Part shown: in pieces, positions 41,098 through 53,103 of the stretch
Position numbering within the stretch: the first letter of the stretch is position 1
Layout of the letters: each line of letters starts with the position of its first letter
Origin: Betaproteobacteria bacterium
GTDB taxonomy: Bacteria; Pseudomonadota; Gammaproteobacteria; Burkholderiales; Burkholderiaceae_D
Reading direction: 5' to 3'
Length of the DNA stretch: 64,000 nt
Assembly: GCA_025362735.1 (NCBI GenBank)
Contig: JANYFL010000040.1
Location: 1 to 64,000 of the forward strand
Translations under genes and position numbers: made by a program
Notes under the pieces: model-generated
The model's input: only the letters and a program-made list of their open reading frames with translations
Told to the model about the DNA's origin: nothing
Databases searched by the model: none

Positions 41098-42279
41098 ATG
41101 CTTACATTTTTATATTTGGAAAATCTTGTGCCAACAGTAAATGAAGATATTGTCAAACGTGTCGGCGGGAATGACCTTATTGGTTGGCATCACTGTAACG
41201 GCAGGGATATTGATGCTTCCGTATATCAGGAGCTCTATCGGAGCGTATTACTCAATGGTCTGAGCCGTACAAAGCGCCTCTATTTAGATACAAACTATTG
41301 GATCTGCTTGCGCGATGCTGAACTGGGCTGTGGAACACCTGATGCTATTAGATTGTTGCAAACTTTGCGTGCGATGGTTCGTTCTCGCGAAATCATATGC
41401 GTGGGTCATTTTCCCTCTTTCTTAGAGATTGGAAAGCAGGACGAGACATGTCTTCGTGTAACTGCCAGCTTACTCGACGAGTTAACTGAAGCTGTCGTGA
41501 TTGCGTCGCCTGACAACCTTCTTGCCTTCGAGTGTGCTGAGTATATTGAGGCCAAGCTTGGTTTCCAATTGCATCATGGTTTGAGCGTATGGACTAAAGC
41601 GGGGCTGATTCACAATCAAGAATTGCCTAATCAGATATCCGAACCAACGACACCTGTCAGTAGTAATGTGATCTTGAAATCGTTGATCGACACACTTTGG
41701 AATGCGTCATTTAAAGATATCTTTGGGACGTTCGAATGGGACACCAAGTCGAGCCTAAATCCAGACATCGACCAGGAAGTTCTTCTGCAAGTTGAACAGC
41801 GCAAGAAAGAGCAAGAGGCAAAAGGACTATTACGCAAGCAAGTGCGACAAAATGAGTTTTTGCAGGTCGTATCTGAGCAGCTTAGGCCTGTCTTCACCGA
41901 TCAGTTAAGAAAGTGGCATATCCAGCAAGGATTTTCACAAGGGCTGGGTGCCATCTTGGTCAACCTCCAAGTGGTACTTGAATCTGCTGTAAAAGAATTT
42001 AGGGCTGGCACTTTGGGCCGACTGCTTCCTTGTGTAGCTATTCCCGTCGAGCTCTATTCTCTATACGAGACAAATCATTTCAAGAAAGCTCCCCTTTTGA
42101 CAAACGACTGGTTTGATTGGAAACACGCAGCAGCAGCTGTGGCCTACTGCGATCTATTCTTTACAGAAAAACATCTTGCTCACCTACTTTGCCAAGAGCT
42201 TAAAGCTGATCAGCAATATGGATGTGAAGTGATTAGTAAGCCTGGCGACGGGTTGCGGAAGCTTTGTGCCATGCGCTAA
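41098..42279 (+). CDS. unrecognised protein with PIN-like nuclease features
   Basis: 393 residues if started at the ATG at 41098; an in-frame TTG at 41062 is the alternative. I do not recognise the family. Two regions resemble the ends of a PIN-type nuclease: RLYLDTNYWICLRD (Asp64) and, near the C-terminus, DWFDWKHAAAAVAYCDLFFTEKHL, with D-x2-H-x8-D-x3-T spacing as in the last PIN acidic residues. Between them is a long insertion with a charged helix (QVEQRKKEQEAKGLLRKQ). Codon usage is AT-richer than in the neighbours, which suggests transfer. There is no antitoxin-like partner beside it. Its 3' end overlaps by 4 bp the remains of a thioesterase gene on the other strand. Confidence 0.6.
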   Translation: MLTFLYLENLVPTVNEDIVKRVGGNDLIGWHHCNGRDIDASVYQELYRSVLLNGLSRTKRLYLDTNYWICLRDAELGCGTPDAIRLLQTLRAMVRSREIICVGHFPSFLEIGKQDETCLRVTASLLDELTEAVVIASPDNLLAFECAEYIEAKLGFQLHHGLSVWTKAGLIHNQELPNQISEPTTPVSSNVILKSLIDTLWNASFKDIFGTFEWDTKSSLNPDIDQEVLLQVEQRKKEQEAKGLLRKQVRQNEFLQVVSEQLRPVFTDQLRKWHIQQGFSQGLGAILVNLQVVLESAVKEFRAGTLGRLLPCVAIPVELYSLYETNHFKKAPLLTNDWFDWKHAAAAVAYCDLFFTEKHLAHLLCQELKADQQYGCEVISKPGDGLRKLCAMR

Positions 42280-42841
42280 CCGGTCTTGATTTTCAAAGTC
42301 AGCTTCGCATCAAACTTCGCCTTATCAATCACAAAGCGTTCATGCTTGCCACGTGAAATCACGTCGACACATCGTGTGCTTCGACGATAAAGACTCGAAG
42401 CCATCTCAAAAATTACTGCGCGGCTGCGATGCGGCGTTGGCAGTGCTCGAAATCCTCGTGTACATCTACGTACACTCCGGTTTCTGTGCGCTGTCCGCCT
42501 TGCCTCGCAACCGCTCGCTACATTTTTGAGAGGGCTTCTGGTTTTCTTCCCACCACTCCAATGAGTTCCACGCTTGCCCTGACTTCCAGTCCGGGCGGGG
42601 TGGCGGCTTCGTGGCTGACGTTGATGTGGGTGCCGACGGTTTGTTCTTGCGGCCAGTCGAAGTGGGGGTTAATGGCCTTGATGCAGGCCCATTCGAGAAA
42701 GCCGACCAGGTAGCCGGTGGCGAAGACATCGGGCATTTGCACGAACTCTTCGGATTCGGGATAGAGGGCAGGGACGGTCTTTGATCTGGGCACGGTGAAA
42801 CGGTGTTCGTACTGAATGCCGGGTTGTCGGCTGGATTTCAT
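42276..42841 (-). pseudogene. FlK-type acyl-CoA thioesterase gene, split by a palindromic element and a frameshift
   Basis: The 5' part (from the ATG at 42841) reads VFATGYLVGFLEWACIKAIN and EQTVGTHINVSHEAATPPG, as in fluoroacetyl-CoA-type hotdog thioesterases. It breaks off after VVGRKP, where a 142-bp repeat (42397-42538) supplies a stop codon. On the other side of the repeat the same gene resumes as VFIVEAHD and, after a one-base deletion near 42370, as SRGKHERFVIDKAKFDAK to a TAG at 42276. Removing the repeat joins GRKP to VFIVEAHD as the family expects. The catalytic Thr/His region lies before the break, but the fold is incomplete. Confidence 0.85.
42397..42538. repeat. 150-bp hairpin element, copy C, inserted in the thioesterase gene
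   Basis: The ends are inverted: GAAGCCATCTCAAAAAT at 42397 and ATTTTTGAGAGGGCTTC ending at 42538. The interior shares with copies A and B the stretches ACTGCGCGGCTG-GATGCGGCGTTG, GCAGTGCTCGAAATCCTCG and TACACTCCGGTTTCTG. It is the most diverged of the three copies in its ends and middle. Confidence 0.9.
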
Positions 42842-50664: not shown

Positions 50665-50667
50665 ACA

Positions 50668-50817
50668 GGGTGTTGCAAAACTACTGCGCGGCTGTGATGC
50701 GGCGTTGGGCAGTGCTCGAAATCCTCGTGTACGTCCCAGTACACTCCGGTTTCTGCGCGCTGTCCGCCCGAATGTTGAAATTCGTCACAACCGCTCGCTA
50801 CGTTTTTCAACACCCCG
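50668..50817. repeat. 150-bp hairpin element, copy A (after infB)
   Basis: It starts GGGTGTTGCAAAACTACTGCG three bases after the infB stop codon and ends CGCTACGTTTTTCAACACCC. The two ends are an imperfect inverted repeat. The interior holds a nested palindrome, GAAATCCTCGTGTACG / AGTACACTCCGGTTTC. It is almost identical to copy B. Confidence 0.92.
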
Positions 50818-52950: not shown

Positions 52951-52952
52951 CA

Positions 52953-53103
52953 GGATGTTGCAAAACTACTGCGCGGCTGTGATGCGGCGTTGGGCAGTGC
53001 TCGAAATCCTCGTGTACGTCCCAGTACACTCCGGTTTCTGCGCGCTGTCCGCCCGAATGTTGAATATTCGTCACAACCGCTCGCTATGTTTTTCAACACC
53101 CCG
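52953..53103. repeat. 150-bp hairpin element, copy B (between rbfA and truB)
   Basis: It starts GGATGTTGCAAAACTACTGCG two bases after the rbfA stop codon and ends TTTTTCAACACCCCG. It matches copy A apart from a few substitutions and one extra base near 53062 (TTGAATATTCG versus TTGAAATTCG). Confidence 0.92.

Follow-up and report, generated by a model that had tools for sequence, protein, structure and literature searches.

Within the 64,000-nucleotide stretch of betaproteobacterial DNA analysed here (the window), a gene for a FlK-type thioesterase on the minus strand (42841-42276) is interrupted by a non-coding imperfect palindrome (42398-42537). The locus raises the question of what this palindrome is, how it came to lie within a coding sequence, and why its ends are not those of its relatives in the same genome. 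An earlier note on this DNA had proposed that a mobile hairpin element split a hotdog thioesterase gene, and the evidence from both the gene and the element bears this out.

The split thioesterase gene

From 42841 the minus-strand frame begins MKSSRQPGIQYEH (reading MKSSRQPG), reaches VVGRKP, continues with EALSKM and ends at a TAG stop (42518-42520) inside the palindrome, giving an open reading frame of 107 residues whose last codons are supplied by the element. Both translated flanks belong to one family. The N-terminal part (42521..42841, minus strand) matches positions 11-76 of the FlK profile PF22636 (E 2.6e-17) and, by phmmer, the FlK structure 3kv7. The stranded C-terminal remnant (42276..42393, minus strand; original stop TAG at 42276-42278), recognisable also from homologues, begins VFIVEAHD at the far side of the palindrome, reads on into SRGKHERFVIDKAKFDAK and matches profile positions 78-102 (E 4.3e-4). 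These are adjoining stretches of the profile, with full-length family membership spread across both halves, and the bridged halves align with 3kv7 from residue 1 to 137 (phmmer, E 2.7e-38), just as the earlier note expected of a protein made continuous by removing the element. The later one-base deletion that it described is also present, in a Gly codon near 42368 within the remnant.

The insertion point is uninterrupted in all of the ~30 homologues that can be read there. They have G(R/K)K-L-(V/I/L/T/S)-F at this position, and in nearly all of them the two codons there are AAR CTN. The closest homologues are 82-83% identical over 100 residues, and the best matches in the sampled genomes are 54% for the same family and 71% for the same order; the empty site is thus deduced from homologues at most 83% identical, in a comparison set drawn from outside the genus. 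The gene is single-copy in its own genome at the threshold used. We conclude that the thioesterase gene is broken by a hairpin of mobile DNA that jumped into it, and the remainder of the gene probably began to decay after the insertion.

Two other accounts of the locus can be weighed on the same evidence. In favour of a conserved, functional short form, FlK's catalytic T, E and H have their counterparts within the 107-residue product. All relatives read are full-length here, however, the stranded tail is still FlK-like and carries a frameshift, and a hotdog fold cut short at this point would lack its final strands, which makes a functional short form very improbable. We give hardly any credence to an artefact of draft assembly: the draft comprises 71 contigs and the element is repetitive, but the two halves of one gene flank the insert in the right order, and its end sequence occurs in no other copy, so it does not come from collapsed siblings.

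The insert amounts to 144 bp (140 bp plus a 4-bp target duplication) and is in frame, and it is the element's own stop codon that ends the protein. Read along the gene strand, the junction is AAA-CCAG-[AAGCCC...GGCTT]-CGAG-TCTTT. The earlier note was right that the frame stops inside the palindrome; its size of 142 bp has been refined to 140 bp, and corresponds to a second parse, in which the element runs G...C and the duplication is TA (2 bp); the two parses are indistinguishable, each accounting for 144 bp inserted.

Sibling copies and target choice

The element has 18 matches in its own genome, the best after the thioesterase copy itself at E 1.1e-42, and so it is not a chance palindrome. 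We assign it to the plus strand, on which its core reads GCAGTGCTCGAAATCC...CCGGTTTC, and delimit it from these copies together with fold, alignment and pair covariation. The usual sibling form in the alignment is CAGGGTGTTGAAAAACTACTGCGCG...CGCTCGCTACGTTTTTCAACACCCTG, of ~141 bp; in longer forms, of 152-164 bp, one arm or both are extended by ~12 bases. Two of the longer siblings lie in the window on the plus strand: one of 152 bp (50666..50817), directly behind a stop codon with an infB-like frame upstream, and one of 153 bp (52951..53103), whose left flank TTAG includes the stop of an rbfA-like gene and which is followed by a truB-like frame. In these two and in three siblings elsewhere (L132, L135, L138) the extra bases sit in the left arm, the right arm or both, as if arm length were copied between them.

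The siblings show a marked target bias. Among the 4-mers flanking family copies, 18 of 36 are YTAR, against a window background of 0.36% (binomial ~1e-34), and YTAR stands at both sides in seven copies, identically in four. About half of the siblings lie directly behind a stop codon. In at least five (52951-53103 in the window, L127, L131, L133 and L135) the in-frame stop of the upstream gene is the TAR of the left flank, and the element begins at zero distance behind that gene; in two more (L128 and L130) the flank is CTGA, one base off CTAA, with TGA as the stop. An insertion at such a site would leave the gene intact, because the duplicated YTAR restores TAA or TAG. In several copies the left-flank duplication thus includes the stop codon, and surviving copies tend to occupy sites where the duplicated target restores the stop. 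The YTAR rule thus explains why these repeats stand right behind stop codons, and the thioesterase copy, the sole one observed in mid-gene, exemplifies the outcome elsewhere. An apparent bias of copies behind genes towards the sense orientation (~11 versus 5, by eye) is too weak to claim.

The neighbours of some siblings deserve mention. One (L129) adjoins a frame resembling puhA, for subunit H of the photosynthetic reaction centre, which makes a phototrophic betaproteobacterium the probable host. A ybaB-like gene directly precedes core-bearing palindromes both in this genome (L130) and in another (L146 in G039), in two families of the order.

At the thioesterase gene the flanks are CTGG (42538..42541, plus strand; CCAG on the gene strand) and CTCG (42394..42397, plus strand; CGAG on the gene strand). 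We propose that they are the two degraded copies of a duplicated CTAG. This is the most likely ancestral target judging from flanks and homologues, because the gene family, with its AAR CTN codons, predicts CTNG and the siblings predict YTAR. The T of CTAG is lost in both proposed copies, and the duplication is not directly visible there. The earlier note had stated that the target preference of the family can be read from this insertion point. This holds, with CTNG read from the gene family and YTAR from the siblings; the duplication is degraded, and the insertion is a qualified example of the family's choice because the terminal repeats of this copy are not the family's.

Terminal repeats of two kinds

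Over 120 bp, the interior of the thioesterase copy shares up to 92% identity with its siblings. Its terminal 16 bp read AAGCC(A/C)TCTCAAAAAT, against CAGGRTGTTGMAAAAC in the siblings; at roughly half of these positions the copy departs from the family, and the departures are alike at the two ends. The left terminal inverted repeat, AAGCCATCTCAAAAAT (42398..42413, plus strand), is unlike that of the 17 siblings, and 15 of its 16 positions are complementary to the right one, AAGCCCTCTCAAAAAT (42522..42537, read on the minus strand). Ends of this GAAGCC type occur only once in the genome.

Both kinds of end resemble those of IS5-family transposons. The sibling ends, CAGGRTGTTGMAAAAC, are like those of an element of NCBIfam type IS5_4 from Sinorhizobium meliloti plasmids (transposase WP_088196807; L226/L227), which has ends CAGGGTGTTGAAAAA and a YTAR duplication as the siblings do. 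It reads CTAA/TTAA, CAGGGTGTTGAAAAAG, ~1.5 kb, CTTCTTCAACAGCCTG, CTAA/TTAA, with duplications CTAA..CTAA and TTAA..TTAA, and its transposase scores 266 bits as IS5_4 (cut-off 140). Unlike the siblings it is autonomous and ~1.5 kb long, and the thioesterase copy is without these ends. The ends of the thioesterase copy, GAAGCCMTCTCAAAAAT, are instead like those of an IS5_3-type element of Leptospira weilii (L229/L231). Here GAAGCCATCTCAAAAAT agrees with GAACCCATCTCAAAAAT at 16 of 17 positions, and the Leptospira ends are flanked by TA preceded by C, a TA duplication in a CTA-G context. The single-end matches behind this result have E values of 0.4-5, and its weight comes from their having turned out to be both ends of an IS5-family transposon. 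Both frames of the Leptospira transposase are above the cut-off for IS5_3; this element differs in being an autonomous two-frame insertion sequence of a distant phylum, without the hairpin core. The autonomous elements with matching ends come from distant bacteria.

Within the order, the end of the thioesterase copy matches, at 17 of 17 positions, an end of a ~66-bp palindrome, otherwise unrelated, in another genome (G437), with CTA and TAG as flanks. Beyond the window and this small palindrome, a search of 399 genomes from the order and 145 from the family yielded only single sites of the new end type, and 45 viral contigs have one exact site each. Matches in Sinorhizobium, Priestia, Listeria, Vibrio and Variovorax were set aside as chance or unpaired. 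The G437 genome also has a ~519-bp stretch (C36:48851-49369) with ends GACCCCATCTCAA and TA flanks, possibly a further IS5_3-type derivative.

The element is short and non-coding, with terminal inverted repeats that match an autonomous element and many copies, the copy number being 18 matches of which a single one has ends of the thioesterase type; these are the marks of a MITE. Because the sibling ends match IS5_4-type elements and those of the thioesterase copy match IS5_3-type ones, one core appears, on this comparison, to carry the ends of two IS5 subgroups. That the thioesterase copy has its siblings' middle but the terminal repeats of another transposon group suggests that the hairpin can change its ends and thereby its carrier.

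Our preferred reading, to which we give a probability of about 80%, is that an IS5-type MITE moved in trans into CTAG, keeping the core but with IS5_3-like ends in place of the siblings' IS5_4-like ones; the later decay of the gene is included in this figure. A DDE transposase of IS5 type would act in trans on the non-autonomous element, which would enter CTAG inside the thioesterase gene with duplication of the target, and the stop in its first codons would truncate the protein at residue 107 and leave the rest of the gene to decay. The ~60-bp core hairpin would be kept, and the outer arms, terminal repeats included, would vary between copies and lineages while staying self-complementary, with IS5_3-like ends going with a TA/CTAG target and the siblings' IS5_4-like ends with YTAR. 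Insertion sequence copies often collapse in draft assemblies, and the assembled genome (71 contigs, 93.6% complete) yielded no IS5-type transposase with PF01609, PF05598 or PF13340. Movement in trans is the usual proposal for MITEs (PMC10969869; PMC2229807). For the exchange of ends, the best candidate explanation might be that recombination replaced one end and that the change was then copied through the hairpin onto the other arm; ends of independent origin around a selected core would come second, and slow joint drift third.

Alternatively, an ordinary CAGGG-ended sibling could have inserted and both arms changed later in place, through mutation and template-switching correction of the palindrome, in which case the present end type played no part in the jump. 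The CTAG target is already explained by the siblings' YTAR rule, and the arms of many copies covary, both of which would suit such a history. Random change would not be expected to bring the arms into agreement with genuine transposon ends at 16-17 of 17 positions, though, and we regard this account as unlikely, if worth keeping in mind.

A conserved core with variable arms

The core hairpin (42436..42497, plus strand) recurs at ~141 bp in other Betaproteobacteria and in E. coli, Salmonella and Aeromonas, with further arms that have no sequence relationship yet are self-complementary. The core of the window copy is 77-82% identical to those of the G055, E. coli and Aeromonas copies, with arms near shuffle level; between families generally the cores are 72-85% identical and the arms no more alike, or hardly more, than shuffled sequence, with lengths of 140-143 bp. 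The G055 copy has ends GAACCTGTTTACGATC and a duplication TTA or TAA. In E. coli one copy lies between qseE and qseG with CTAA on both sides (L174) and another between glnL and glnA (L249), and a core match is found in 5,375 of 5,426 genomes, at a median of four places. A Salmonella copy stands behind yheS (L246), and the core occurs in a Comamonas palindrome as well (L248). L247 is a further intercistronic palindrome with the core and unrelated arms. In Proteus mirabilis (L251) the core hairpin carries an internal tandem duplication, GGGCAGTGCTCGCAATGCTCACATACTTTAAGTATGT. The Comamonas palindrome (880-1060) runs 10 nt into the end of the upstream coding sequence (GGTTCGTAACTGA / GGTTCGTGGCTGA), as if host flank had been copied, inverted, onto the opposite side. 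We considered whether outer arms are inverted host flank in general; this is suggestive in the Comamonas copy and weakly so in L127, but most copies stop at the duplication and we make no such claim.

Within the genome of the window, two-sided changes occur in 19 of 58 stem pairs, compared with 4.7 in shuffles (0 of 500 reached this number) and 2-6 in slid controls, counts that the kinship of the sequences can raise above shuffles without structure. Sixteen of the 19 covarying pairs are in the outer stem, and the core is nearly invariant. Four G.U pairs are kept on the core strand only (in 15-17 of 17 copies), which would suit a structured RNA at 3' ends or between cistrons, held by selection, with mobility incidental and the thioesterase copy a by-product; so would the placing of copies immediately after stop codons, and often within apparent operons between two genes, in several bacteria. 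Target duplications, transposon-like ends and the mid-gene insertion speak for transposition instead, a stop codon within the duplication explains the position without selection on RNA, and no Rfam family reaches its gathering score (Rfam covariance models over the window matched only a tRNA). We therefore consider an RNA element of this kind rather improbable.

The movement of an IS5-type MITE with exchanged ends may be one instance of something wider. We suggest, tentatively and with less than even confidence, a superfamily of ~141-bp palindromes in Beta- and Gammaproteobacteria with a fixed core and arms replaced repeatedly, moved by transposases of several IS5 subgroups, of which the thioesterase copy would be an exchange caught in the act; hairpin-templated copying would keep the two new arms complementary.

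The palindromes of E. coli, Salmonella and Aeromonas (qseE-qseG, glnA-glnL, behind yheS; 141-143 bp) are among the closest known systems. Their cores are 80-85% identical to the family consensus, and they share the CTAA or TAA duplication, often with a stop codon, but their arms are at shuffle-level identity and their ends are like GAGCCTATCCCATTAGG. Those of E. coli may be an already named repeat, possibly RSA. An exact search for the core letters in openly licensed papers gave no match, and we found no description of end exchange on a conserved core in that literature, where the E. coli repeats may carry an older name. YPAL / RU-2 of Yersinia (PMC2759123, PMC2229807) is likewise palindromic, ~168 bp long, mobile and intergenic; homology was rejected, as the local alignment score of 11 equals the shuffle mean of 11 and the sequences are unrelated. 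QMITE2 of Coxiella (PMC5896051) is a palindromic MITE found mainly in 3' untranslated regions, of which other genera keep a different part, but it has variable duplications of 7-11 nt and a GTAG REP inside, and it is its tip that diverges, not its arms.

A MITE family is usually recognised by its constant ends, which decide which transposase moves the element. If the end exchange is real, a kept middle bearing another subgroup's ends would break the rule of classing MITEs in this way; it would explain how a small repeat could, by changing carriers, have extended from Betaproteobacteria to E. coli, and would raise the question of what role the core has. IS5-family MITEs (PMC10969869) are like the present element in being short and non-coding, with terminal inverted repeats, a short target duplication (a proposed, degraded one at the thioesterase copy), many copies and the ability to disrupt genes. 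Gene inactivation by MITEs is well known (PMC10969869), and this part of the story is ordinary; the surprising part is the conserved core with exchangeable ends, for unlike those MITEs the copies described here have a common core but different ends.
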